Of a DNA stretch of 64,000 bases, positions 1-54,520 are shown in pieces. The DNA lies in the NCBI GenBank assembly GCA_903844645.1, contig CAIMUP010000118.1:1-64000 (forward strand), in the 5' to 3' direction. The notes under the pieces were generated by a model that worked only from the letters and a program-made list of their open reading frames with translations, was not told the DNA's origin and did not search any database. The stretch's first letter is position 1; each line of letters starts with the position of its first letter. The stretch is from an uncultured Bacteroidota bacterium. GTDB lineage: Bacteria; Bacteroidota; Bacteroidia; AKYH767-A; JABDAW01. The position numbers and the translations under genes are program-made.

Positions 1-230
1 CCTCCAGAGTATGTTCTAGAACCTCCAGAGTATGTTCTCGAACCTCCAGAGTATGTTCTAGAACCTCCAGAACATGTTCTAGAACCTCCAGAACATGTTC
101 TAGAACTTCCAGAGTATGTTCTAGAACCTCCAGAACATGTTCTAGAACCTCCAGAACATGTTCTAGAACTTCCAGAGTATGTTCTAGAACTTCCAGAGTA
201 TGTTCTAGAACCTCGAGAGTATGTTCTGAA
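1..230. repeat. 21-bp tandem array A (TTCTAGAA core)
   Basis: Ten units of exactly 21 bp and a final 20-bp unit, cut by the window start, so the full length is unknown. Each unit ends in the palindrome TTCTAGAA, with one variant TTCTCGAA. Two unit types are mixed and differ only at a central dinucleotide: AGAGTATGTTCT or AGAACATGTTCT. The second is itself a perfect 12-bp palindrome, and the change GT to AC is a reverse complement. No spacers, so not CRISPR. It ends about 160 bp upstream of the first promoter. Confidence 0.95.
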
Positions 231-3400: not shown

Positions 3401-5003
3401 ATTGATTGTTCAAAATGGTGCTTCCTTTACTTTTGATGAATCATCAGCTACTTATACTTATTCTACTTCGACTCAAATTCTCTTGAACACGATGGGTGTT
3501 GCAAGTAACACAAAAGCCACCTTTGATGTGGACGCAACCTCTTCAATGGATTTAGAACAAGGAGATATTATTTTTGAAAACACCAACACAGGTTCTGCTG
3601 ATGACTTTAAAATTGGCAATGGCTCTGGTTTCAAGATAATCGGTTCTGCAAACAACCTCCAATTTGGTGATGCATCATCTTCTTCAACCGCTTGCTTTAA
3701 AATTATTGACAGCACTTCCGCCATTAATAATCTTACCATTAACCCAACTGGTGGACACGATTCTGTTCGATTAGATGCTCCGCTAACGATTGGCAGTTCC
3801 GGCATCCTGAATTTACACACAGGTATTCTGCAATTAAATAAAAACCTATTGACCCTTAACAACACTTCTTATAATTCGCTCGGTTCTTTGGTAAATCTTA
3901 ATACAGGTGCTATTCAGCGTTCTACTGGCGGATACATCCTTTCCGAAGATTCCATAAACCGTTCTGCAATAAAATGGGCGATGACGACGGGCAACCTCTT
4001 TTACGTCTTCCCTTTCGGCAATACTTATGGCGGCTATGTTCCATTTTCCTTTAAAAATACATCCACAGGAACTACTTCGCTGAAGGTCGCTACCTACGCT
4101 CCGACGGTTAGCACTTCTCTGCATAAACCTTATCCGTTAACGGTTACGCATCTCCATAGCATCAGCGGTCCTGATAACAGTGCAAATGTCGTTAACAGAT
4201 TCTGGCAAATAGATACATCCGCAGTATCGGGGACGGTTATCGGATCGGTTAAATTTGTATTCTCCAACATTTCAGGGCATGACGAAACACCTGCTAATGC
4301 TTGGGCTACAGGAGGAGTTGCACAACGATGGTCAGCCTCCGGATGGAACACCCCGACGAACAGTGCCCCGACCTCCAACAGCAGCAGTGGCGATACAGTT
4401 TCTGCAAGCGGAATTACCAAATTTTCTCCGTGGACTTTATCCAGAACAGCTTTTGCACTGCCGATAGATTTACTAAATTTTACTGCATCATATAATGGTA
4501 AATCGGTGGATTTGAATTGGACAACGGCTTCTGAAATCAACAATGATTATTTCACCGTTTCAAAGACCGTGAATCAAAGTGAATTCGACTTCGTAGCCAC
4601 CGTGAATGGAGTCGGCAACAGCAATATTATTCAGAATTATTATGCCGAAGACAAGACCCCGTTCATCGGTAATTCTTATTACCAATTAACCCAAACCGAT
4701 TACAATGGCAACGCTACGAAGTACGGGTTGGTACCGATTTTTATTCCAGAAAACGGCTTGGAAATAATCAAGGTTTACGGCGATATAAATGGCGTAATCA
4801 ATCTCACGGTGAACGACAATACCAACGAAATGCTCTCCATCGCCATCCTCGACATTCTCGGAAACAGAATCGGAAGCCAAACCATTAACGCCATCAAAGG
4901 CGGCAATTATATCCAGATAAAACCCGAAAACCTTCCCCAAGGAGTTTACTTTATTTCGGTAAGCAATACCGCCAAACGACTGACCTCGAAATTGGTTTAT
5001 TAA
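474..5003 (+). CDS. Giant secreted T9SS-sorted surface protein
   Basis: 1509-residue exported protein. Residues 1-28 form a signal peptide ending at AFGQ. The next part is rich in aromatic and Asn/Thr residues, followed by Ig/PKD-like stretches (CSGGSVNLSC and a SWSPGATLNDST-type segment). A W-x-G-x-S-T-N-W...NW...P motif follows near residue 740, then a beta-solenoid-like region. The last 80 or so residues have T9SS type A sorting features: a DILGNRIGSQ segment, LPQGVYFISV and a final KRLTSKLVY. The start at 474 was chosen because the promoter lies at 392-422 and the signal peptide begins there. Role unknown: probably an adhesin or structural surface protein. It stands alone between two repeat arrays with its own terminator. 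Confidence 0.85.
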   Translation: MIRKTAHSALFATVLMIATFLANTAFGQLFTPYTITRTTGNTYNSIMGGGGGIYPASTVGWHYSLLGDDMLTYPISLGGWTFNYDNVNMSAFMISTNGFITFDTTTSSIGGYPYGYVNTEFSDQSSPCCIAPMWDDLVTESTNYSQYASWPNVDSCVKYKITGSSGNHVLTVEWANMSHYAASTADINFQLKLYESDYHIEFIYGSMTPGNVTWSFSSGLSSNQTPYTSTAQLLAQQTVNTTSFTYTASDNLSSMPSNNSMIIFNRNTRDLGAISLASPVAGSCTYPTIDTVKVIVHNYGTVTQTFTNLNPVVVYSVVTTPSGTTTCSATVTSGTLAANSDMTVTVGTINMSTGGNYTFLDSTNYATDLNINNNVGVSTTVTVGAVIATATSSTTICSGGSVNLSCSTPGFGHVFSTTYAPISLTSPTTVSLTNDAYTTINIPFTFKYFCNNYSSFILADNGNIQFSSAYSTYLNHVIPGNVLPNNIIAFAFSDLNNPVSGSITYQTMGTIPYRYFVLNFNNVAVFDTTGITTQVILYETTNLIEIHETTVPSHNYTQGIQDNTGAGYTPTGRNDLTWSATNDAYQFTSCPTYSWSPGATLNDSTSATPLASPTVTTTYTVTLNPGSACTKTSSVTVIVTNPLGAIQPIVGDSILCAWTNTSFKIPAITNATSYVWDNSNLSGSTITTGQGTDSITLNVGGSLGGSLRVRGYNSACNAYTAWVSIYILIIPNNNSSANQWVGGVSTNWFNVNNWCGGLPNSTTSADIDGYLGGNYGYFQYFPVINASGAVTLDMILEGDFDTLTISGSNNLDVYGNWIMANSNSISTFIPNTSTVTFKGSTDQSMSNPNFSSLTLPFYNLTINKGSSTATLLEDLYGQQITVSHNLSLVNGLFLISEPTSTVQFSSAPTIPATAGIDLNGGVITPGNYSITNNGVFRINNSSSDITIGATAGNSITTSGSGGSFEMYGGNLTVTGQLIVQNGASFTFDESSATYTYSTSTQILLNTMGVASNTKATFDVDATSSMDLEQGDIIFENTNTGSADDFKIGNGSGFKIIGSANNLQFGDASSSSTACFKIIDSTSAINNLTINPTGGHDSVRLDAPLTIGSSGILNLHTGILQLNKNLLTLNNTSYNSLGSLVNLNTGAIQRSTGGYILSEDSINRSAIKWAMTTGNLFYVFPFGNTYGGYVPFSFKNTSTGTTSLKVATYAPTVSTSLHKPYPLTVTHLHSISGPDNSANVVNRFWQIDTSAVSGTVIGSVKFVFSNISGHDETPANAWATGGVAQRWSASGWNTPTNSAPTSNSSSGDTVSASGITKFSPWTLSRTAFALPIDLLNFTASYNGKSVDLNWTTASEINNDYFTVSKTVNQSEFDFVATVNGVGNSNIIQNYYAEDKTPFIGNSYYQLTQTDYNGNATKYGLVPIFIPENGLEIIKVYGDINGVINLTVNDNTNEMLSIAILDILGNRIGSQTINAIKGGNYIQIKPENLPQGVYFISVSNTAKRLTSKLVY

Positions 5004-5113: not shown

Positions 5114-5281
5114 GATGCCAACTCAACCAGTTAAGATGATAACTTAACCGTCGAAGATGCCAACTTCTACCACAAAGAGCACAACTTCTACTACAATGAT
5201 CACAACTTCTACTACAAAGATGACGACTTCGACTACAAAGATGCCAACTTCTACTACAAAGATGGCGACGCTTAACAGTGA
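5114..5281. repeat. 21-bp tandem array B
   Basis: Eight units of exactly 21 bp, each starting GATG or a variant (GATC, GAGC), with the best-conserved part AACTTCTACTACAAA. The first two units (AACTCAACCAGTTAA and AACTTAACCG) have diverged but keep the phase. No ORF of interest. It fills most of the gap between a terminator and the next promoter. Confidence 0.93.
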
Positions 5282-5546
5282 ATTTTGGAGAAAAAGGTTA
5301 AAAAGTAGGGATGAACTGTTCATAACTTTTGGCTGATAAAAGAAACATCTGATAAAAAAAGGCGTAAAAAAGAATGAAATCTTACACTATTTTTTCACCC
5401 TATTTCCCCAAAATGTCCTGCGATACGCCGCCAATTGTAAAAATGTTTCAAAAGCCAAATGATGCCAAATGCCCTTTACTATGGGGAGTTTTAGATATTT
5501 TTAAAAATTTCAGTTGCGAAAAATGCAAAAATAAAATCGTTAAAAA

Positions 5547-5578
5547 TTTGGCAGATTCTTACAAAATCCCTAATTTTG
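5547..5578 (+). promoter_or_regulatory. Bacteroidota promoter, TTTG-N20-TAATTTTG
   Basis: TTTG at 5547-5550 and TAATTTTG at 5571-5578. It lies inside the long upstream in-frame extension (from 5374), showing that this extension is not translated. Confidence 0.8.
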
Positions 5579-5640
5579 CAGCCTCAACAAGGAAATACAT
5601 GTATCACAAATCTATTACACACACTATCAAAACACAAAAA

Positions 5641-8600
5641 ATGAACGTCAAATTGATTACACAAAACACACAAACAGCAATTTTTAAAAAGAGCGGTATT
5701 TTGGTTTGCATATTAATGGCATTCCTATTCTGCACCAACACTTTCGCGGCTACCATTACCTGGAAAGCTAATTCAAACAGTAATTGGAACAGCCCCTCGA
5801 ACTGGCAAGGAGGACCTGTTCCGACCTTTGGCGACATCGCAGTTTTTGATGCGACCTCGGCATTTAATTGTAACATTGATGCAAATGTAAATGTGGCAGG
5901 AATTCAGATTAATGCAGGTTACACAGGTACCATTACGCAGAATGGTTATACCATTACTTGTGGTGCATCCGGCTTTACGCAATCTACCGGAACATTTACC
6001 GGAGGCACTGCTGCAATTACCGGAAACGGAGCATTTAATTTGAGTGGTGGTATTTTTACCTCTACTTCAGGAGTATTTACACAGACTTCCACTTTCACTA
6101 ATTCTGGTGGAACTTTTAATCACAATAACGGTAGTGTTGTGTTCTCTGGTGGTTTAACAATAACCGGTTCGACTACGTTTTATGATTTATCATTTACAGG
6201 AAGTGGGGTTACCTATACTATCGGAAGTTCAACCACTCTAACTGCGAATAATACCTTTAACACTACAGGTGCGAGCTATGCTACTTTGAGCGGTGGAACA
6301 ATTGATGTAAAAGGAAATATTAACGTGAATAATACTTATGCTGCAAATAATAACCATTCGACTTCAGTAACAATTACTGGGACGGGTTCGCAGACATTTA
6401 CAGGAGCAATTACAGCCTATCAAGGTAGATTCCCATCAGTAACCATTAATAAGGCATCGGGAACTTTGTACCTGAAGAATAATATCACCTTTGAAGGGAA
6501 TTTTACTTACACAACTGGTACTATAGATTATACTACTAACACAAACCGATTGATTTTTATTTCTAATGGAAAGACAATAACGGTTAATGCAGTGCTTACT
6601 GTAGGTGATGTCGAATTTTACGGAACAGGAAGTAATTATACACTTACAACACCTTCAAACTTCAATGTTACAGGGACACTATACATTAGCGGATCAAGTT
6701 ATGGTACGATGCTGTCAGGGACGATTTATGCTCAAGGAAATATTACGGTTACGAATAGTTATACCGCTAATATGGGGCATACTGCAATAATAACTATCAA
6801 TGGAAGTGGAAACCAAAATCTTTCAGGAACTATTACCGCTATGCAAGGAAGACTTCCAAGTCTTGTTATTGCTAAGGGAGGTGGAACGCTTTATTTATTG
6901 AACTACATTACTACTGAAGGGCATTACAGCTATTTTATGGGTACGGTTGATTATACGACAAATGCAAACCGGGTAATCTTTATTTCTAATGGAAAGACTA
7001 TTTTGACAAATACTGCACATACGTTGGGAGATGTTGAATTTGTTGGAACAGGAAGTTCATATACACTAACAACTACCGGAGCATTCAATATTGCGGGAAC
7101 ACTTTATATAAGCGGAACCAGCTACGGCACTATGTACACCGGTACAATTAATGCAAAAGGAAATATTACGGTTACAAATAGCTATACTGCCAATATGGGG
7201 CATACAGCAATAATTAACATCACTGGAACAGCAAATCAGAACTTTACAGGACCGACCACATCTTTACAAGGGAGACTTGCGAGCATAATTATCAATAAGG
7301 CCTCAGGAACTCTTTATTTATTAAACTATATCACAACCGAAGGGAACTGGACTTATACCACAGGAACAATTGATTACACTACAAATGCAAACCGTGTAAT
7401 TTTTATATCGAATGGAAAGACAATTACCACAAATGCTGTTCACACATTAGGCGATGTCGAATTCGTTGGGACAGGGAGTTCATTCACTTTTACTACTCCT
7501 TCTGCTTTCAATATTGCAGGAACCCTTTATTTCAGTGGAACGAGTTATGGAACGATGTTGAGCGGTACAATTAATCCACAAGGGAACATTAATGTTAGCA
7601 ATAGTTATACTGCTAATATGGGTCATACTGCAACATGGAATATTAACGGGACAAGTAATCAGAACTTTACTGGTACAACTACGATTTATCAGGGAAGAGT
7701 TCCAAGTATTATTATTAACAAAGCAAGTGGAACGCTTTACTTAATCAATTATATTACCGATGAAGGAAACTGGACTTACACAACAGGAACTGTTGATTAT
7801 ACAACAAGTGCAAACCGTGTTATCTTCATCTCTAATGGTAAAACAATAACTACAAATGCTGTTCACACATTAGGGGATGTTGAATTCAATGGAACAGGAA
7901 GTAATACTACTTGGACTACTCCATCTGCTTTCAATATAACAGGTACGATGTTTATTACTGGAAATAGTTACGGCACATTCCTCGGAGGAACAGTCAATTC
8001 ACAAGGTAATATTGCAGTTACTAATAGCTATACCGCTAATATGGGTCATACGGCAACGATTAATATTAATGGAACATCTAACCAGAACTTTACCGGAACC
8101 ACTACGATTTATCAAGGCAGAGTTCCAAGTATAGTTATTAATAAAGCAAGTGGAACTCTTTACTTAATCAATTATATCACAGATGAAGGTAACTGGACAT
8201 ACGCTACAGGAACTGTCAACTATACGAATAATGCAAACCGTATAATCTTTATCTCTAATGGCAAAACAATAACCACTAATGCTGTTCACACATTGGGAGA
8301 CGTTGAATTTTATGGAACGGGAAGCAATACTACATGGACTACCAATTCAACCTTTAACATTGCCGGTACTATGTACATTACTGGGAATAGTTACGGAACA
8401 TTTCTTGGAGGATCAGTGAATTCTCAAGGGAATATAACCGTTACGAATAGTTATACAGCTAATATGAATCATACAGCTACTATTAGCATTAATGGAACAG
8501 CGAACCAAAACTTCACCGGAACAACGACGATTTATCAAGGAAGACTCCCAAGTATCATTATTAATAAAGCAAGCGGAACTCTTTACTTAATCAATTATAT

Positions 8601-10776
8601 TACCGATGAATGTAACTGGACTTACACTACAGGAACTGTTGATTATACAACAAATGCCAACCGTGTTATATTCATCGGTAATGGTAAGACTATTACTACT
8701 AACGCAGTGCATACGTTGGGTGATGTTGAATTCTATGGAACGGGAAGCAATACTAAATGGACTACGAGCTTTACCTTTAATATTGCCGGTACTATGTACA
8801 TTACTGGAAATAGCTACGGAACATTCCTTGGAGGTACAGTAAATTCTCAAGGGAACATAACGGTTACTAATAGCTATACATCGAATATGAATCATACCGC
8901 TACCATTAATATCAATGGAACAGCGAACCAGAACTTTACCGGAACAACCACGATATATCAAGGAAGGCTTCCTAATATAATTATCAATAAAGCGAGTGGA
9001 ACACTTTATTTAATCAATTATATCACTGCTGAATGCAACTGGACTTACACTACAGGAACGGTTGATTACACTTCAAGTGCAAACCGTGTGATCTTTATCG
9101 CCAATGGTAAAACCATTACTAAGAATGCCAATCACACAATTGGCGATGCCGAATTCTATGGTACAGGAAGCAATACGACGTTCACGACTCCTTCTGCATT
9201 CAATGTTGCGGGTACGATGTATATCACTGGAAACAGCTACGGAACGATGTTGACCGGAACGGTAAATGCGCAAGGTAATATCACCGTTTCAAATTCTTAT
9301 ACCGCAAATAACAATCACACTGCAACGATTAATATTAATGGTTCAGCGAATCAATTATTCACAGGGCAGGGAACGGCAGGAACAGGAAGATTACCTAATA
9401 TTACCATCAACAAAACAGGCGGAACATTAACATTGGCTGCCCCAATAATTACTGCTGAAGGGAACTGGTCTTATACCGCAGGAACGATGGATGTCGCTAC
9501 CGATACCTCTTCTGTTGCATTCTACAACTCTGGCAAATACATCAGCGGAGCACTTTATACCGCTACCTTGATGGACAATAATCGCAGAACCCTAAACGGC
9601 GCAATGAGCATCAGCAATGTCCTCGCATTAGGAACAGGTAATTTAGACTTAAATCAAAACACGCTTTCCATCTTAAACTCTGCTGCCGGTGCAATCACCT
9701 ATTCAACAGGATATATCAAGAGCGAGCAGACAGATAATTCAAGTAAAATAGCTTGGACAATCGGCTCAAATACCGGAAGCCACGTTTATCCTTTCGGTAC
9801 CAATGGCGGTTCTTTAATTCCATTTACATTCACTGTAACCGCTGGAGATGTCGGCGCGTTTTCGGTCGCAACATACTCTACCAACAGCACTTGCAAGCCC
9901 TATCCCGTTACCCCTGATTCAGTTTTGCATGTCCGCAACGTGGCTGGCTTTGACAATAGCTCAAACACCGTAAAAAGATTCTGGCAATTAACCAAGGGCG
10001 GCGTATCTGGCACTGCCAATATGACCTTCACCGCTGCCGCCGCAGAGGTAGGAACCATTACTTCGCTAAGAGCACAACGATACAATAAAATTAACAACGG
10101 ATGGGATCAACCAATCGGAGGACAAAGCAACCCAACGGCATACAGCGCAACGGTTTCCGGTGTCAGCACCTTCTCTCCTTGGACGATGTCTGGCAATGGC
10201 GTTCCGCTCCCGATACAATTGGTGGACTTCACCGGGAATTATGTAAAAGAAACTAAGTCAGTTCATACCCAATGGACCACCGCGAGTGAGGTAAACAGCA
10301 ATTACTTCACCATCCAAAGATCAGCTAACGGCGTGGATTTCGATTCCATAGGAGCTGTCCAAGGAGCAGGCAACAGTAATGCTTTATTGAACTACAGTTT
10401 CGACGATATGAACCCGTTGCAAGGCATCTCTTATTATCGTTTATCACAGACCGATTTCGATGGCAAGGTAGCTACCTTCAACATGATATTAATTGATGTT
10501 AATACTGATGAAAATACCACAGTGAATATCTTCCCGAACCCAGGTAACGGCACAGAAGTGAATGTGGTCTATACCGATGAAGCAGAGGGCGATAATATCA
10601 CCTTTACCATCGCCGATATTGCTGGCAAAACCATCGCGCAAACAACAATAGTGAATGAAGCAAAAGGCATGAATATTTATAAATTCACGCCTCCTTCGAC
10701 ACTCCCATCCGGCATTTATTTTATGACCGCTGTGATTAATAATAAATCCTTCTCCAAAAAGATAATCGTACAATAA
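5641..10776 (+). CDS. Repetitive T9SS-sorted surface protein, 7 x 141-residue repeats
   Basis: 1711-residue secreted protein. Signal peptide at residues 1-37 (hydrophobic ILVCILMAFLFC, then TFAA). A W-K-x-x-S-N-S-N-W...S-N-W motif is followed by seven repeats of exactly 141 residues (423 bp) and a partial eighth. The anchor T-L-G-D-V-E-F recurs at 6601, 7024, 7447, 7870, 8293, 8716 and 9139. Each repeat carries GNITVTNSYTAN, the NINGTANQNFTG type, GRLPSIIINKASGTLYL and RVIFISNGKTITTNA. Copies differ mainly at silent positions with no indels. The C-terminus is a T9SS sorting domain (IFPNPGNGTEVNV, LPSGIYFMTAV, KKIIVQ). A start at 5599 is also possible; 5641 gives the better signal peptide. Probably a beta-solenoid filament or adhesin. 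Confidence 0.87.
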   Translation: MNVKLITQNTQTAIFKKSGILVCILMAFLFCTNTFAATITWKANSNSNWNSPSNWQGGPVPTFGDIAVFDATSAFNCNIDANVNVAGIQINAGYTGTITQNGYTITCGASGFTQSTGTFTGGTAAITGNGAFNLSGGIFTSTSGVFTQTSTFTNSGGTFNHNNGSVVFSGGLTITGSTTFYDLSFTGSGVTYTIGSSTTLTANNTFNTTGASYATLSGGTIDVKGNINVNNTYAANNNHSTSVTITGTGSQTFTGAITAYQGRFPSVTINKASGTLYLKNNITFEGNFTYTTGTIDYTTNTNRLIFISNGKTITVNAVLTVGDVEFYGTGSNYTLTTPSNFNVTGTLYISGSSYGTMLSGTIYAQGNITVTNSYTANMGHTAIITINGSGNQNLSGTITAMQGRLPSLVIAKGGGTLYLLNYITTEGHYSYFMGTVDYTTNANRVIFISNGKTILTNTAHTLGDVEFVGTGSSYTLTTTGAFNIAGTLYISGTSYGTMYTGTINAKGNITVTNSYTANMGHTAIINITGTANQNFTGPTTSLQGRLASIIINKASGTLYLLNYITTEGNWTYTTGTIDYTTNANRVIFISNGKTITTNAVHTLGDVEFVGTGSSFTFTTPSAFNIAGTLYFSGTSYGTMLSGTINPQGNINVSNSYTANMGHTATWNINGTSNQNFTGTTTIYQGRVPSIIINKASGTLYLINYITDEGNWTYTTGTVDYTTSANRVIFISNGKTITTNAVHTLGDVEFNGTGSNTTWTTPSAFNITGTMFITGNSYGTFLGGTVNSQGNIAVTNSYTANMGHTATININGTSNQNFTGTTTIYQGRVPSIVINKASGTLYLINYITDEGNWTYATGTVNYTNNANRIIFISNGKTITTNAVHTLGDVEFYGTGSNTTWTTNSTFNIAGTMYITGNSYGTFLGGSVNSQGNITVTNSYTANMNHTATISINGTANQNFTGTTTIYQGRLPSIIINKASGTLYLINYITDECNWTYTTGTVDYTTNANRVIFIGNGKTITTNAVHTLGDVEFYGTGSNTKWTTSFTFNIAGTMYITGNSYGTFLGGTVNSQGNITVTNSYTSNMNHTATININGTANQNFTGTTTIYQGRLPNIIINKASGTLYLINYITAECNWTYTTGTVDYTSSANRVIFIANGKTITKNANHTIGDAEFYGTGSNTTFTTPSAFNVAGTMYITGNSYGTMLTGTVNAQGNITVSNSYTANNNHTATININGSANQLFTGQGTAGTGRLPNITINKTGGTLTLAAPIITAEGNWSYTAGTMDVATDTSSVAFYNSGKYISGALYTATLMDNNRRTLNGAMSISNVLALGTGNLDLNQNTLSILNSAAGAITYSTGYIKSEQTDNSSKIAWTIGSNTGSHVYPFGTNGGSLIPFTFTVTAGDVGAFSVATYSTNSTCKPYPVTPDSVLHVRNVAGFDNSSNTVKRFWQLTKGGVSGTANMTFTAAAAEVGTITSLRAQRYNKINNGWDQPIGGQSNPTAYSATVSGVSTFSPWTMSGNGVPLPIQLVDFTGNYVKETKSVHTQWTTASEVNSNYFTIQRSANGVDFDSIGAVQGAGNSNALLNYSFDDMNPLQGISYYRLSQTDFDGKVATFNMILIDVNTDENTTVNIFPNPGNGTEVNVVYTDEAEGDNITFTIADIAGKTIAQTTIVNEAKGMNIYKFTPPSTLPSGIYFMTAVINNKSFSKKIIVQ

Positions 10777-10929: not shown

Positions 10930-11080
10930 AAACCGATACGTTTTTTGGGAAAGGCATTCCGCTTTTCTGAAGAGGCGTTCCGCTTTTTTAATAAAGCATT
11001 CCGCTTTTCCAAAAAGGCATTCCGTTTTTTGAAAAACTCACTACGTTTTTTTAGAAAACTCACTACGTTTTTGGTATAAA
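10930..11080. repeat. 21-bp tandem array C (CG + T-tract)
   Basis: Seven units marked by a C-G step followed by a T tract. The CG falls at 10939, 10960, 10981, 11002, 11023, 11044 and 11066, so spacing is 21 bp five times and 22 once. Units read GCATTCCGCTTTT early and CACTACGTTTTTT late, drifting along the array. The rest of the 510-bp gap holds only a terminator and the secA promoter region. Confidence 0.88.
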
Positions 11081-11287
11081 CAAAACAGTTAGGTAAAGAT
11101 GTTATTCGCTATATTTATCATGTAATTAACCATTATTAAGCTAGTTATAAGTTAATAAAACACCCCTTTTTTGGGCTTCGAAAGAAATTAGGGGAGAGGC
11201 AGGGGCGGAGCATCTTATCGCATAAAAATATCCCGAAAAATAATTCCCTGTTGATTGCTATTTTCGCACCCTAAAGCAAAAAGAATT

Positions 11288-14712: not shown

Positions 14713-14751
14713 AATGAAAAGGGTGATTTAGAGACAAAAGATAATATTTTC

Positions 14752-14961
14752 GGGACAGCTATCTTTCACTATGGGAGAGCTATCTATTCATTCGGGATGC
14801 CTATCTATTGCTACGGGATGCCTATCTATTGCTACGGGATGCCTATCTATTCATTCGGGATACCTATCTATTGCTACGGGATACCTATCTATTGCTACGG
14901 GATGCCTATCTATTCATTCGGGATACCTATGTATTCATCCGGGACACATGTCCTGTGCGAA
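14752..14961. repeat. 21-bp tandem array D (GGGATnCCTATCTATT)
   Basis: Ten consecutive units of exactly 21 bp, each starting GGGA and carrying CTATCTATT. Unit ends are of two main kinds, GCTAC and CATTC, in an irregular order. The last unit has diverged (GGGACACATGTCC). Three short open frames across it are products of the 7-codon period. Confidence 0.95.
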
Positions 14962-15090: not shown

Positions 15091-15097
15091 TGTGAAG

Positions 15098-15181
15098 TGC
15101 CCAGGACTGGACTCGAACCAGCACAACCTTTCGATCGCTACCACCTCAAGGTAGTGCGTCTACCAATTTCGCCACCTGGGC
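15098..15181 (-). tRNA. tRNA-Leu (anticodon GAG)
   Basis: An 84-nt class II tRNA on the minus strand. The acceptor stem GCCCAGG/CCTGGGC, the D-arm TGGCGAAATTGGTAGACGCA and the T-arm GGTTCGAGTCC are visible. The anticodon stem CTACC/GGTAG closes the loop UUGAGGU, giving anticodon GAG. The long variable arm and the leucine-type D-arm agree. CCA is not encoded. Confidence 0.95.
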
Positions 15182-17558: not shown

Positions 17559-17562
17559 CAAC

Positions 17563-17940
17563 GCAAATTGTTCCATCGCTCTTTATGCAAATTAAGGGGA
17601 GGAAAGTCCGGGCAACACAGGGCATCATACTTCCTAACGGGAAGGCTTCGACAACGGTTCGGAGACAGAAAGTGCCACAGAAAATAACCACCTCGTACGG
17701 ATGTATCCGGCGCGGGGTACGGGTGAAAATGTGAGGTAAAAGCTCACGCTTCGGCGTAGTGATGCGCCGCAGGGGTAAACCTTATGAGTTGAAAAGCCAA
17801 ATAAACTCCGGTCAAGGGCTGCTCGTCCGAATGCTTCGCAAGAGGATGCCGGAGAGGGTAGGCTGATAGAGGTTTCGGGTGACCGGAATCCCAGATAAAT
17901 GATGGAACACGACAGAACCCGGCTTATAGATTTGCAATTT
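17563..17940 (+). ncRNA. rnpB: RNase P RNA
   Basis: Catalytic RNA of RNase P, which trims tRNA 5' leaders. Universal elements are present in order: GGAGGAAAGTCCGGGC near the 5' end, the internal CAGGGGTAAACC region and ACAGAACCCGGCTTATAG near the 3' end. The ends pair: GCAAAT near the 5' end with ATTTGC near the 3' end, and TGTTCCATC with GATGGAACA. Size about 378 nt suggests the bacterial A type. The exact ends are inferred from this pairing and the terminator. Confidence 0.96.
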
Positions 17941-17943
17941 TAT

Positions 17944-20829: not shown

Positions 20830-21060
20830 CTCCAGATGCGTCTATGGAAGGCATTCCTTCCTTCCGACAGCTTCCGTACACGTGTATGGGAGCTGTCGGA
20901 TGCTCCCAATGCCTTCCAAACACGTGTATGGAAGGTATTCCTTCCTCCCGATGCCTTCCGGAGGCGTCTATGGAAGCTATCCGATCCTCCAGATGCCTTC
21001 CATAGACGTCTATGGAAGCTATCCGATCCTCCAGATGCCTTCCATAGACGTCTATGGAGC
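20830..21060. repeat. 42-bp (2 x 21) tandem array F (GACGTC palindromes)
   Basis: Six copies with an exact 42-bp period; the marker TATGG starts at 20843, 20885, 20927, 20969, 21011 and 21053. The mature unit centres on the perfect 22-bp palindrome CTTCCATAGAC|GTCTATGGAAG (clearest at 20997-21018), so each 42 bp holds two 21-bp half-units in opposite orientation. Early copies have CACGTGTATGG in place of GACGTCTATGG. Downstream to 21285 there is only the next promoter. Confidence 0.93.
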
Positions 21061-26354: not shown

Positions 26355-26530
26355 CATGTAAAACCTATCAGAAATCCAAATTTCCGATAGGTCTTGGATT
26401 CAAGACCTATGTGAAATCCAAATTTCTGATAGGTTTTCGATCCAAGACCTATGTGAAATCCAAATTTCTGATAGGTTTTGAATCCAAGACCTATCGGAAA
26501 TTTGGATTTCTGATAGGTTTTGGATCCCCA
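26355..26530. repeat. 42-bp (2 x 21) tandem array G
   Basis: Four copies with an exact 42-bp period; the marker ACCTAT starts at 26363, 26405, 26447 and 26489. Each copy is a 21-bp unit (GACCTATGTGAAATCC) followed by its inverted counterpart (AAATTTCTGATAGGT), giving hairpins around CCTATCAGAAAT/AAATTTCTGATAGG. A 113-residue open frame over the array has a 14-residue repeat only because of the period. The rest of 26146-26628 shows nothing else. Confidence 0.92.
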
Positions 26531-33055: not shown

Positions 33056-33290
33056 TCAGGATTCATTCCCATTGCCGGATTGCACCAAAGTATTGCTGGA
33101 TTGCACCAAATTATTGCGAGCAATGGCGGAATTATTGCGAGCAATGGCGGAATTATTGCGGGCAATGGCGGAATTATTGCGGGCAATGACGAAGTTTTTG
33201 CGGGCAATGACGAAGTTATTGCTGGATTGCACCAAATTATTGCCGGCAATAATTTGGTGCAATCCAGCAAAATATTGGTGCAATCCAGCA
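33056..33290. repeat. 21-bp tandem array H with flanking inverted units
   Basis: The middle has direct 21-bp units (CAATGG/CAATGA marker at 33121, 33142, 33163, 33184 and 33205). On both sides lie units GGATTGCACCAAA (33077, 33098, 33224) and their reverse complement TTTGGTGCAATCC (33256 and 33277 marker). The right part forms a perfect 52-bp palindrome at 33219-33270 centred on GCC|GGC. All markers stay in 21-bp phase. Confidence 0.94.
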
Positions 33291-37261: not shown

Positions 37262-37520
37262 CACGGGGAATGGGATTTTATCCTTGGCTAATTCCATTTT
37301 ATCCTTGGCTAAAACCCAAATAGCCGTGGCTATTTCCATTTTAGCCGTGACTAATTCCAAAATAGCCGTGGCTAATTCCATTTTAGCCATGACTAATTCC
37401 AAAATAGCTGTGGCTAATTCCATTTTATCCTTGACTAATTCCAAAATAGCCTCCGCTAAAACCAAAATAGCCTCGGCTATTTCCATTTTATCCTCCGCTA
37501 TTTCCATTTTCTTCGGGAAA
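37262..37520. repeat. 21-bp tandem array I (ATTCCATTTTA / ATTCCAAAATA)
   Basis: About twelve units in exact 21-bp phase, from CCTTGG at 37282 to CCTCCG at 37492. Two unit types mix: CCATTTTA and CCAAAATA. They differ by exchanging T4 for A4, i.e. a reverse-complemented core, between constant GCCGTGGCTA arms (TAGCC and GGCTA are complementary). A 320-residue leftward frame and a 164-residue rightward frame across it are period artefacts. Confidence 0.94.
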
Positions 37521-41615: not shown

Positions 41616-43190
41616 ATGAAACAAAACATTGAGTTGGTTTTGTTGCCTGAAGAGGCTTCCAACGAACTCCTTATCAAAGAACAAGCAGCGAGGCAGTTGA
41701 AACTCACGATTGCCTCCATTACTTCCGTAAATATCACCAAGCGTTCGATAGATGCTCGGTCTCGGCAGGTAAAGATAAGGCTGTTGGTAGATGTTTTCAT
41801 CAATGAAACGTCTCCCTATGCAATCTTTCATAAAGAACAATACAAAGATGTTCATAATATGCCGCCTGTCTTGATAATTGGTGCTGGTCCTGCTGGATTA
41901 TTCGCGGCATTAAGACTGATTGAGCTGGGTTTAAAACCAATCATCGTTGAGAGAGGAAAGGATGTTCGGCAACGACGACGAGACCTTGCATTAATTAATA
42001 AAAATCGCTTCATTAATCCCAATTCCAACTACTGTTTTGGGGAGGGCGGCGCAGGAACGTATTCCGATGGCAAGCTATACACCCGATCTACCAAGCGGGG
42101 CGATGTGAATCGGATATTAAATATTTTGGTGGCGCACGGTGCCTCGCGAGATATTCTGATAGATGCCCATCCTCATATCGGAACGAACAAGTTGCCGGCA
42201 GTGGTTATGGAACTTCGCGAAACGATATTGGAGGCAGGTGGAGAAATCTTGTTCAATACCCTGCTTACTAATTTTATTATTCACAATAATTCCATCCAAG
42301 GCATCCTGGTGAAGACTATTAATGGTAATTCATCTACCGAATATTCTATCAAAGCCCAAGCTGTGATCCTGGCTACGGGACATTCGGCGGGGGATGTGTA
42401 TGAGTTATTGAATTCCAAAAACATCCTGATCCATCCCAAACCGTTTGCCCTCGGGGTCAGGATTGAGCATCCGCAAGCGTTGATTGATTCCATCCAATAC
42501 CATTGCGATACCCGTAGTGCTTTTCTCCCTGCTGCCGCTTATAATTTTGCATCCCAAACAAATGGTCGCGGCGTGTATTCTTTCTGCATGTGTCCTGGTG
42601 GAATCATTGCGCCATGCGCTACCGATGCCGGAGAAATAGTGGTCAATGGGTGGTCTCCCAGTAAACGAAATAATCCTTTTGCTAACTCCGGCATCGTGGT
42701 CAGTGTGGATGAAAATGATTTCAAGAATTATAAAAATCACGGCGCATTATGCGGCTTAAAGTATCGCCAAGGTATCGAACAAAAAGCATTCATCGCGGCA
42801 GGTTCCAATCTGAAGGCTCCTGCCCAAAGGATGATGGATTTTATAGACCACAAATTCAGCCGCAGCCTCCCCGATACCTCCTACATTCCGGGTGTGCAAA
42901 GCGTTTTATTGGATGAAGTGCTGCCTGAAACCATTGCCGACAGTTTGCGAATCGCCTTAAAAGAATTCGGGAAGAAGATGAAAGGATATGCCACCAATGA
43001 TGCCGTATTGGTAGGCGTAGAAAGCCGCACTTCTTCTCCTGTTCGCATCCCGAGAGATGCCGAATCATTGCAGCATCCACAGGTAAACGGACTCTATCCT
43101 TGTGCCGAAGGAGCGGGCTATGCTGGCGGCATCATCTCTGCCGCAATAGATGGCGAACGATGCGCAAATAGCATTAAAAACTCCTATTAA
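41616..43190 (+). CDS. FAD-dependent dehydrogenase (COG2509-type)
   Basis: 524 residues. A small N-terminal alpha/beta domain is followed by the FAD-binding VLIIGAGPAGLFAALRLIE at about residue 85 with VERGKDVRQRRRD. Then NSNYCFGEGGAGTYSDGKLY, the VILATGHSAGDVYELL block, HPKPFALGVRIEHPQ and a C-terminal NGLYPCAEGAGYAGGIISAAIDG. This set marks the uncharacterised FAD-dependent dehydrogenase family related to HI0933/BaiN proteins. Substrate unknown. It starts 12 bp after porT and probably shares its mRNA. Confidence 0.88.
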   Translation: MKQNIELVLLPEEASNELLIKEQAARQLKLTIASITSVNITKRSIDARSRQVKIRLLVDVFINETSPYAIFHKEQYKDVHNMPPVLIIGAGPAGLFAALRLIELGLKPIIVERGKDVRQRRRDLALINKNRFINPNSNYCFGEGGAGTYSDGKLYTRSTKRGDVNRILNILVAHGASRDILIDAHPHIGTNKLPAVVMELRETILEAGGEILFNTLLTNFIIHNNSIQGILVKTINGNSSTEYSIKAQAVILATGHSAGDVYELLNSKNILIHPKPFALGVRIEHPQALIDSIQYHCDTRSAFLPAAAYNFASQTNGRGVYSFCMCPGGIIAPCATDAGEIVVNGWSPSKRNNPFANSGIVVSVDENDFKNYKNHGALCGLKYRQGIEQKAFIAAGSNLKAPAQRMMDFIDHKFSRSLPDTSYIPGVQSVLLDEVLPETIADSLRIALKEFGKKMKGYATNDAVLVGVESRTSSPVRIPRDAESLQHPQVNGLYPCAEGAGYAGGIISAAIDGERCANSIKNSY

Positions 43191-43204
43191 AGTGGGGAAA
43201 ACCC

Positions 43205-43418
43205 TCGGGAGTACGCCCAATACTCCCATATATACGCGGCGTACTCCCATATATACACGGCGTACTCCCATATATACACGGCGTACTCCCATATATACAC
43301 GGCGTACTCCCATATATACACGGCGTACTCCCATATATACACGGCGTACTCCCGTATATACGCGGCGTACTCCCGTATATACGCGGCGTATATATGGGAG
43401 TATTGGGCGTACTCCCGA
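43205..43418. repeat. 21-bp tandem array J with 33-bp perfect terminal inverted repeats
   Basis: Eight marker positions of CGGCGTA in exact 21-bp phase, with GG at 43238, 43259, 43280, 43301, 43322, 43343, 43364 and 43385. The internal palindrome is TATATA. Unit types CCCATATATACA and CCCGTATATACG are grouped, the second near the right end. The array is bounded by perfect inverted repeats at 43205-43237 and 43386-43418 (core CCCAATACTCCCATATATAC). It starts 14 bp after the upstream stop codon. Confidence 0.96.
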
Positions 43419-43482
43419 CCATTTTCAAGAATTATTGGTGTTTTGAAGCAGGTTTAATCATTTTGAATCCCCAGAAAAGAAG

Positions 43483-43548: not shown

Positions 43549-44940
43549 ATGGAGATAGCATATTTAATAATAGGATTGGTAGTCGGAATCGGGGCGGCGT
43601 ATTTTGTGATGAAATATAAGTTTGAGAGCAATAAAGGCATTCCGCAAGAGCAGGTAGAAGAGTTGGCAAAACAAATTGCAGAGCTATCGAAGCATAAGGA
43701 ACTTGCCGAAGGGAAAGTGCTGCAATTGATAGAGCAGGTTCGGGAATGGCGCGATAAAGCGGATGCCGAACAGGAGAAAAATGTGTCGCTGAATAAACAA
43801 TTATCAACCAAAGAGGAGGCGTATAAGAACATCGAAGAGAAGCTGGCAAAACAAAAAGAGGAGATTGAACATATCCAAACGAAATTCACGACCGAATTCA
43901 AGAACTTAGCCAATGAAATTCTCGAAGATAAGAGCAAAAAGTTTACGGAACAAAACAAAACCAATATTGATGAGATATTGAAGCCGCTGAATGAAAAGAT
44001 TAAAGACTTCGAGAAGCGCGTCGTGGATACTTATGACAAAGAATCGAAGGAACGTTTCTCGTTGCAGAATGAAATTAAGAACCTCGTTATCCTGAATCAA
44101 AGCATCAGCAAAGAGGCGAATAACCTGACGAATGCGCTCAAAGGACAAGCCAAGACGCAGGGCAATTGGGGAGAAATGATTTTAGAGAATATCCTCGAGA
44201 AATCGGGTTTGGCAAAGGGACGGGAGTACTTTGTTCAGCAATCTTTCACCGATGAAGCGGGGAAACGATTACAGCCCGATGTGGTGGTGAATTACCCGGG
44301 AAATAAAAGTATTGTCATTGATTCGAAAGTGTCCTTGAATGCTTATGAAAGGTATTCTAATGAAGAAGATAAAACTCGTCAGGATGTAGAATTGAAGTTA
44401 CATATTGATGCTATCAAATTGCATATAAATACGTTAAGCGGAAAGAATTATCAGGACTTATATCAGTTGACAAGTTTAGACTTCGTGCTGATGTTTGTGC
44501 CTATAGAGCCGGCATTTATGTTAGCCGTGCAAGCCGATCCCGATCTTTGGAGTTATGCTTATGAGAGAAGGATTTTGTTAATCTCTCCTACTAATTTAAT
44601 CTCTACTTTAAAGATTGTTTCGAGCCTCTGGAGGCAAGAATATCAGAATAGAAATGCCATGGAAATAGCTAAGCAGAGTGGAGATCTTTATGATAAGTTT
44701 GTTTTGCTGATGGAGAGTTTGGTCGATGTTGGTAACAAATTAAAAGGCACGCAGAAAAGCTATGAGGAGTCAATGAATCGCCTATCTACCGGTAAGGGAA
44801 ATCTAATAAAGAAAGTGGAAGACATCAAGACACTTGGTGCAAAAGCAAACAAGTCAATACCCCAGGTTTTATTAGACAGAGCAGGGGATGATGAGACTAT
44901 TGAGACAAATGAAACTAACGATACGAAGACATTATTCTAA
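43549..44940 (+). CDS. rmuC: DNA recombination protein RmuC
   Basis: 463 residues. An N-terminal membrane anchor (IAYLIIGLVVGIGAAYFVM) is followed by a long coiled coil (about residues 30-190, rich in Glu/Lys/Gln). The C-terminal nuclease-like RmuC core has GQAKTQGNWGEMILENILEKSGL, LQPDVVVNYPGNKSIVIDSKVSLNAYE, LDFVLMFVPIEPAFMLAV and RRILLISPTNLISTLKIV. In E. coli RmuC limits inversions at short inverted repeats, notable here because inverted-repeat arrays surround it. It heads an rmuC-murF pair. Confidence 0.94.
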   Translation: MEIAYLIIGLVVGIGAAYFVMKYKFESNKGIPQEQVEELAKQIAELSKHKELAEGKVLQLIEQVREWRDKADAEQEKNVSLNKQLSTKEEAYKNIEEKLAKQKEEIEHIQTKFTTEFKNLANEILEDKSKKFTEQNKTNIDEILKPLNEKIKDFEKRVVDTYDKESKERFSLQNEIKNLVILNQSISKEANNLTNALKGQAKTQGNWGEMILENILEKSGLAKGREYFVQQSFTDEAGKRLQPDVVVNYPGNKSIVIDSKVSLNAYERYSNEEDKTRQDVELKLHIDAIKLHINTLSGKNYQDLYQLTSLDFVLMFVPIEPAFMLAVQADPDLWSYAYERRILLISPTNLISTLKIVSSLWRQEYQNRNAMEIAKQSGDLYDKFVLLMESLVDVGNKLKGTQKSYEESMNRLSTGKGNLIKKVEDIKTLGAKANKSIPQVLLDRAGDDETIETNETNDTKTLF

Positions 44941-46551: not shown

Positions 46552-46973
46552 TACTGCTCCGCCGAGTTTTCATACTGTTTTAATAAAAATTACTACCTCC
46601 CGTAAGCAAATTCCTACCTAACGCAAGAAAATACTTACCAGCCGAAACGGGATTTTTACCAAAAACGAACAAAAACATATGTTTTTGTTCGTTTTTGGTA
46701 AAAATCCTAAGTTTTTAGATAGGTGTCCCGATTGTTCGCATAGGAAAACCCGAAAATTTGGTAAGCGCAATTCTTTTTTAGATAAGATTATAACGGGGAA
46801 TGGTATCAGGAAATCCGAAAATCCTATCAGAACTTTTCAAAAACATATGTTTTTGAAATTTTTTGGTAAGAATACACTTTTTTTAGGTGCGAATTCCTAC
46901 AGAATCAGTACCAACGAAGTGATGGCGAGTACCTTTTTTCTTAAAAAAGCTATCAAACACTGCCGCATCCATA
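46552..46973. repeat. Degenerate 21-bp phased array K with 58-bp perfect palindrome
   Basis: From 46552 to 46972 a TA step recurs every 21 bp without slip (46552, 46573, 46594 ... 46972; the one at 46888 reads TG), although the sequence between is largely diverged. Left of 46678 the step reads TACC or TACT; right of it GGTA, then TACC/TATC again, i.e. a degenerate GGTACC core. Units meet head to head in a perfect 58-bp palindrome at 46650-46707 centred on CAT|ATG, and in a 24-bp palindrome at 46835-46858. Nothing else is seen in 46324-47104. Confidence 0.9.
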
Positions 46974-47683: not shown

Positions 47684-47689
47684 ATTATG

Positions 47690-47763
<74 letters not shown>

Positions 47764-49150: not shown

Positions 49151-49270
49151 CCCCTCATCCAAAACACGGATGACCTCAACCCAATCACGGATGACCTCAT
49201 CCAAAACATGGATGACCTCAAACCAATCACGGATGACCTCAAACTTGTCGCGGATGACCTCATCCGTGAT
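49151..49270. repeat. 21-bp tandem array L (GGATGACCTC)
   Basis: Five units in exact 21-bp phase (GGATGACCTC at 49168, 49189, 49210, 49231 and 49252). The last runs into an inverted half unit, giving the near-palindrome CGGATGACCTCATCCG. It sits between the divergent promoters of glyA and rocD. Confidence 0.94.
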
Positions 49271-54294: not shown

Positions 54295-54520
54295 TAACAA
54301 TATTCTTCGACCCCGTTGATATATTCTTCGACCCCGTTAAGATGTTGTTCGACCCCGTTGATATGTTGTTTGACCCCGTTAAGATGTTGTCCGACCCCGT
54401 TGATATGTTGTTTGACCCCGTTAAGATGTTGTCCGACCCCGTTGATATGTTGTTTGACCCCGTTGATATGTTGTCCGACAACACAGATATGTTGAGGGGG
54501 AACATATCTCTGTTGTCTCT
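54295..54520. repeat. 21-bp tandem array M (ACCCCGTTGATATG)
   Basis: Eight units in exact 21-bp phase (CCCCGTT at 54311, 54332, 54353, 54374, 54395, 54416, 54437 and 54458). Types TTGATATG and TTAAGATG alternate almost strictly. The right edge is a hairpin at about 54476-54516 (GACAACACAGATATGTT against AACATATCTCTGTTGTC, one mismatch). The left edge adjoins the terminator. Confidence 0.95.

Follow-up and report, generated by a model that had tools for sequence, protein, structure and literature searches.

We describe a class of intergenic 21-bp minisatellites that, among the genomes sampled, is specific to a single bacterial genus. Bacterial minisatellites are normally few, and a common period among them usually means a common sequence or coding. 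In the three genomes of this genus, by contrast, arrays keep one length while their sequences vary freely. The 21-letter length is common to them and the sequence almost never is. This pattern points to duplication in 21-letter steps, blind to sequence, and away from a single mobile cassette. This bears on the focal array, at 43205-43418 of the window (the 64,000-nucleotide stretch of an uncultured Bacteroidota bacterium that was analysed), whose cassette interpretation is mostly not supported. The constant length, and not the ends of the focal array, is the point of interest.

Arrays of constant length in the window, the genome and the genus

The window holds about a dozen arrays of period 21, 42, 63 or 84 with unrelated sequences. 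Besides the focal array they include:

1..227, 21-bp array at the contig end (TRF call)
5154..5264, 21-bp array (TRF call)
10950..11081, 21/22-bp array (TRF call)
14751..14944, 21-bp array with faded edges (repeat calls and 21-column layout)
20839..21058, 42-bp array; its 21-bp halves are related to each other by inversion
26363..26527, 42-bp array whose 21-bp units alternate and are partly inverted, with 44-nt perfect inverted arms at 26360-26403 and 26478-26521
33071..33290, 21-bp array whose right-end units are inverted in the same register, with a 52-bp perfect palindrome at 33219-33270
37275..37510, 21/42-bp array (TRF call)
46586..46639, short 21-bp array adjoining a 58-bp perfect palindrome at 46650-46707
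49153..49262, 21/42-bp array; the right edge carries an inverted unit
54306..54479, 21/42-bp array (TRF call)

Elsewhere in the window we find RNase P RNA class A (17560-17942), tRNA-Leu (15097-15181) and tRNA-Ala (47689-47763), both tRNAs on the minus strand, and 5.7 copies of a 423-bp repeat (6946-9350) inside an 1800-aa ORF (5374-10776) that probably encodes a repetitive secreted or surface protein.

The genome of the window (G000) is a 143-contig bin of 3.8 Mb, of which we sampled 692 kb (400 + 292 kb, about 18%), calling genes by a simple ORF rule. Periods of 21, 42, 63 or 84 account for 98 of the 121 TRF arrays in the first sample and 78 of the 92 in the second, and about 175 arrays of period 21, 42 or 63 bp were found across the 692 kb. 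By extrapolation to 3.8 Mb, the genome would carry several hundred to about a thousand arrays. In a lag analysis of 112 arrays from three genomes of the genus, which were chosen beforehand for periods of 21, 42, 63 or 84 and with which the unselected counts agree, a strong excess of matches appears only at these four lags (+0.43 to +0.57), and is larger at 42 than at 21. Within the units there is no 7-base or half-turn sub-periodicity, as lags 7, 10, 11 and 14 all fall under expectation. The sequences themselves are mostly unrelated, with 8 similar pairs among the 112 arrays. At L028:16734-16986 one and the same other 42-bp unit pair flanks an array on either side, its two occurrences separated by exactly 210 bp, and two unrelated unit sequences here lie on one 21-bp lattice in one register.

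The arrays are predominantly intergenic. In the first sample 90 of 97 lie outside any ORF, and an array is present in 92 of 322 intergenic gaps on our rough gene map, with no preference for the orientation of the neighbouring genes (++ 20, +- 16, -+ 15, -- 17). Heptapeptide coding can be rejected on this count and by the position of the focal array between two complete genes; a slight excess of open frames in the units (4.39 vs 3.91 of six) is uninformative on coding. We also reject an assembly artefact, as the class is seen in three separate genome bins and the focal arms are short, and an origin in phages or plasmids, as nothing similar was found in phage or plasmid collections. Of the contig ends examined, 36 of 65 fall in arrays, so homogeneous arrays may be collapsed and the lengths may be underestimates.

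Counting arrays of any period, the three genomes of the genus carry 30 (G000), 18 (G001) and 26 (G002) per 100 kb. In the 13 genomes from other families of the order, 21-bp arrays are few or lacking, and the sister genus (G003, e.g. L204-L223) has mostly arrays of 7 or 8 bp, which are many, with a few of 42-44 bp and no dense 21-bp arrays. The difference between these two genera makes the step size of tandem duplication a testable question. Spacers beside homologous genes in G001 or G002 contain either an array of unrelated sequence or none; since the genes have about 70% nucleotide identity the spacers are expected to be saturated, and the comparison gives no rate. In G001 the homologues of the focal neighbour genes lie on different contigs and have other neighbours.

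The arrays resemble the prokaryotic satellites surveyed by Subirana and Messeguer in being local tandem arrays, many of unique sequence and some with dispersed copies (PMC6749651). In the part of that survey considered here, the highest listed density is 89 per Mb, in Methanosarcina vacuolata, whereas G000 has about 200 arrays per Mb with at least 4 copies (all periods of 10-200 bp counted); this is more than twice as dense, although detectors and criteria differ. A single non-coding 21-bp period dominates in G000, and the same part of the survey mentions no such constant non-coding period. The TAACTGA heptamer repeats of Beggiatoaceae, Cyanobacteria and Bacteroidetes are likewise short intergenic tandem arrays in scattered lineages, but they have one fixed 7-nt sequence (PMC4679880), whereas here the length is fixed and the sequences are many. 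Text searches of the literature, with subscription papers mostly outside their coverage, found no account of the 21-bp class.

The focal array and its inverted ends

The focal array and its setting are composed as follows:

41616..43190, + strand, upstream gene, FAD-dependent protein of 524 aa (Pfam PF21688, E 7.2e-72)
43205..43237, + strand, left inverted arm, TCGGGAGTACGCCCAATACTCCCATATATACGC; 16 nt of flank with inverted-unit sequence and the first 17 nt of unit 1
43221..43390, + strand, 21-bp tandem array (TRF: 8.1 units of TACTCCCATATATACACGGCG, 97% matches, no indels)
43242..43388, + strand, 147-bp segment of exactly 7 units, whose computed excision leaves a 67-bp perfect odd palindrome
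43386..43418, - strand, right inverted arm, an inverted copy of the unit 1 start and the left flank
43549..44940, + strand, downstream gene, RmuC family protein of 463 aa (Pfam PF02646, E 1.2e-106)

The left arm begins 14 bp after the stop of the FAD-dependent protein gene, and rmuC starts 130 bp past the right arm. With 8.1 head-to-tail copies of 21 nt the array qualifies as a minisatellite or prokaryotic satellite (at least 4 copies of a 10-200 nt unit). The sequence-only reading had described 33-bp perfect inverted repeats around direct 21-bp units, and this holds exactly, 43205-43237 and 43386-43418 being exact reverse complements. When mismatches are allowed, the pairing widens to 43197-43243 and 43380-43426 (47 nt at 91%). 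The arms are not distinct from the array, since each consists of 17 nt of one unit and 16 nt of flank, and GGGAGTA, the start of a unit in inverted form, lies in the flank part of the left arm. Between the arms there are 148 bp, or 7 x 21 + 1, so that removal of 147 bp gives a 67-bp palindrome that is perfect except for its single central base. Both inverted stretches keep one 21-bp register, with the axis at 13 modulo 21 on each side (the left scored by hand). The right arm carries the unit 1 form ATATATACGC and not the GTATATACGC of the adjacent unit 8. The two ends therefore match one another, beyond any likeness to adjacent units, an argument that consists of one base in the unit and the 16 nt of shared flank.

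The ends are also not due to chance. Perfect inverted repeats with arms of at least 20 nt within about 440 bp occur at just 18 places in the 692 kb of G000, and the focal one is the fourth longest of these. Sixteen of the 18 overlap 21-bp arrays. Similarly, 18 of 27 perfect hairpins with arms of at least 14 nt lie in or beside arrays; arrays and 45-bp margins cover 6.3% of the DNA. In a scan for inversions, each array was searched, together with 84 bp of flank, for its own consensus in reverse complement; the control used the consensus taken from a different array. Inverted edge units were found in 21 of 94 arrays from the three genomes and in 5 of 47 from the second sample; the controls gave 0 of 465 and 0 of 231. 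These totals (26 of 141 arrays, none of 696 mismatched controls) and the concentration of palindromes in arrays show that inverted ends are a recurring feature of the class, and the idea that the focal ends might be the coincidence of a single inversion is not supported. The location of the inversions at edges is partly definitional, because a direct-repeat finder halts where the orientation switches.

Where an array has several scorable inverted segments they share their axis modulo 21, as at 33071 (11, 11), L039 (3, 3, 3) and L041 (12 throughout). This agreement is partly automatic for contiguous or palindromic blocks, and the cleanest independent cases are the focal array and L039 2079. The inverted in-register ends resemble a record of fold-back events within arrays.

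The same scan argues against the defined edges of a mobile or self-contained cassette that the sequence-only reading had proposed. It had named gradual edges with no inverted ends in relatives as the observation that would speak against it, and this holds for most arrays of the class: 115 of the 141 lack inverted edge units, and the remaining 26 have them. Beyond the left edges the in-register similarity to the consensus is 0.37, 0.34 and 0.31, compared with 0.24-0.26 off register. It thus decays over two to three further units past the called edges, and edges are generally gradual.

The suggestion that a strand could fold with its ends paired is borne out by prediction. The predicted RNA fold of the focal array has an MFE of -120.1 kcal/mol, compared with -71.9 in shuffles (z -9.65), and the predicted single-strand DNA fold has a z of -8.83. 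Across the class, predicted folds beat those of column-permuted copies at z < -2 in 68 of 134 arrays, and 3 lie at z > 2. Between 20 and 46% of units are self-complementary, compared with 4-5% of flank controls. This raises the question whether arrays are kept for the long RNA hairpins or cruciform DNA they could form, with roles in transcript end protection, insulation or nucleoid binding at two helical turns. The strong fold, the excess of self-complementary units, the intergenic position and a unit spacing of exactly two helical turns would all fit such selection. Against it, arrays show no preference for gene orientation, their sequences are not conserved between species, and about half of them have no clear structure. 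At the focal array we found no Rfam family match and no transcription terminator, just a separate small minus-strand hairpin at 43506-43487. We regard selection for structure as decidedly unlikely to be the main explanation, but it could also hold on top of the one we prefer.

Sibling arrays and mobility

The focal repeat has only two copies in the genome. The second, 91% identical, is found at G000:C11:816-987, on the far side of rpoC and of the small gene that follows it. The two copies have the left end in common, including AAAACCYTCGGGAGTACGC, and also TATTGGGC at the right, but the sibling lacks the inverted right arm. Exact matches to the terminal 12-mer are found genome-wide at both focal ends and one end of the sibling, and nowhere else. 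Other sibling pairs vary in what they have in common. At L038 18045 and L040 18038 both ends are common (left ..TTTTAGGAAACTGGGGATT.., right ..GGAATTCC) in unrelated surroundings, another pair has about 40 bp in common on one side, and the pair L025 5871 and L037 has its units in common and nothing more. Pairs with common ends indicate that some arrays were copied to new places, and limited mobility of arrays is therefore possible.

A mobile element of the MITE type would have its ends as terminal inverted repeats for a transposase and the 21-bp units as an internal minisatellite. The nearest described object in appearance is BrickBuilt of Porphyromonas gingivalis, a 23-bp minisatellite inside a MITE (PMC4596501). 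Both occur in Bacteroidota as intergenic direct repeats of similar unit length with inverted ends and a predicted long stem-loop. The 19 copies of BrickBuilt form a single sequence family and have a leader, a tail, 12-nt IS5-like terminal repeats and filled and empty sites (PMC4596501). Here, by contrast, there are hundreds of mostly unrelated arrays with the 21-bp period alone in common, and the inverted ends occur in a minority of arrays and are made of array units.

The focal array does have terminal inverted repeats at both ends (33 bp, perfect), as a MITE would, and the edges it has in common with the array near rpoC, like the ends of the L038 and L040 pair, would be expected of such an element. 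What is missing is a set of copies with common terminal repeats. There are two copies, the 12-mer is absent elsewhere and no duplication is seen next to the focal arms, which argues against a transposon; the focal array is outside any transposon family with conserved ends. The missing right arm of the sibling, the many arrays without inverted edges, the pair that has only units in common and the lack of a match in phage or plasmid collections weigh in the same direction. A MITE-like origin thus seems unlikely to us.

REP and BIME sequences with RAYT transposases are short intergenic palindromic units, sometimes alternating in orientation, and belong to one sequence family per genome. The arrays described here also have short intergenic palindromic units, some of them alternating, but the units differ between arrays, unlike the dispersed copies of one palindromic consensus that go with a RAYT system. 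An origin of this kind was rejected, as PF01797 (REP-type transposase, Y1) is no richer here than in relatives.

Proposed growth by 21-bp steps and fold-back inversion

The explanation we prefer, with slightly more confidence than doubt, is a genus-specific intergenic 21-bp minisatellite that grows by 21-bp steps and obtains its inverted arms from fold-back template switching. Slippage, template switching and the order of events are what we infer. Sequence-independent tandem duplication in 21-bp steps, often of 42, would start arrays and make them grow, and such steps would keep the whole array on one 21-bp lattice. Units tend towards self-complementarity, and the resulting hairpin-prone stretch could stall replication. 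The nascent strand would then turn back on itself and serve as its own template (quasipalindrome template switching), an event that may both place inverted units on the same lattice and make imperfect inverted arms perfect. The focal arms would be the halves of a 67-bp palindrome, separated by 7 further 21-bp units, or alternatively the product of a fold-back copy of unit 1 and the left flank that was placed after unit 8.

The lattice, the genus-wide occurrence, the intergenic position, the unrelated sequences, the in-register inversions, the excess of palindromes in arrays and the self-complementary units support this explanation. In E. coli, template switching is an established route by which imperfect inverted repeats become perfect (PMC7202029), and the 33 of 33 paired positions of the focal arms are what it could leave behind. 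In E. coli it was seen at short hairpins in laboratory reporter genes (PMC7202029), and we infer its action here. Several observations do not sit easily with this explanation. Ordinary slippage does not predict a single fixed 21-bp step for unrelated sequences, pure local growth does not give sibling pairs with sequence in common past the array edges, and about half of the arrays have no clear self-complementarity.

The fixed step could instead be set by a dedicated ruler, a genus-specific enzyme that builds and inverts units, for example a nuclease that cuts 21 nt apart with subsequent fill-in, or a site-specific recombinase whose targets are the unit dyads. Such an enzyme would account for a step that is fixed whatever the sequence, for inverted units that stay in register and for the restriction to one genus among the genomes sampled. 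No such gene was identified, and PF01797, as noted, is not richer than in relatives; as a rival explanation we consider the ruler enzyme improbable and give it little weight. In its broader form, the proposal is that the genus has a dedicated sequence-blind ruler that duplicates, and at times inverts in register, 21-bp intergenic segments, so that each genome would have from several hundred up to a thousand arrays, mostly unrelated to one another, and this we hold to be unlikely.

As for repair factors, SbcD, part of a hairpin nuclease, did not exceed the cut-off in any of 12 genomes from the order, this genus included. Its lack may let palindromes persist, but since it is missing order-wide it does not explain arrays in this genus only. 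Loss of mismatch repair was rejected, as both G000 and G001 have MutS. Most of the relatives tested have a second, MutS2-like hit that is missing in this family (G000, G001, G003); this is a correlation only.

Two motifs were observed next to arrays. One is a palindromic element, CATCCTGACAGGCAATCGCCCCTTCGCGATTTCCTGTAAGGTTG, about 44 bp long and dispersed, found in G000 at L028:3505-3548 and 3814-3838, L033:10430-10473 and L258:372-415; at L028 an array is flanked by inverted copies of it. Half-site matches number 123 genome-wide; the element probably has 60 or more copies in G000 and is nearly absent from G001 and G002. In the samples, 20 of 24 CCTGWCAGG sites lie within 200 bp of a 21-bp array, compared with 38% of non-array intergenic DNA. 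The second motif, around CACTCCTTATATATAGGCAGCTTTTTGGGG, lies at most 70 bp from an array in 6 of 7 cases, and its sites include L031:16396, L039:6960, L249:5221, L037:182, L256:17098 and L246:17335.
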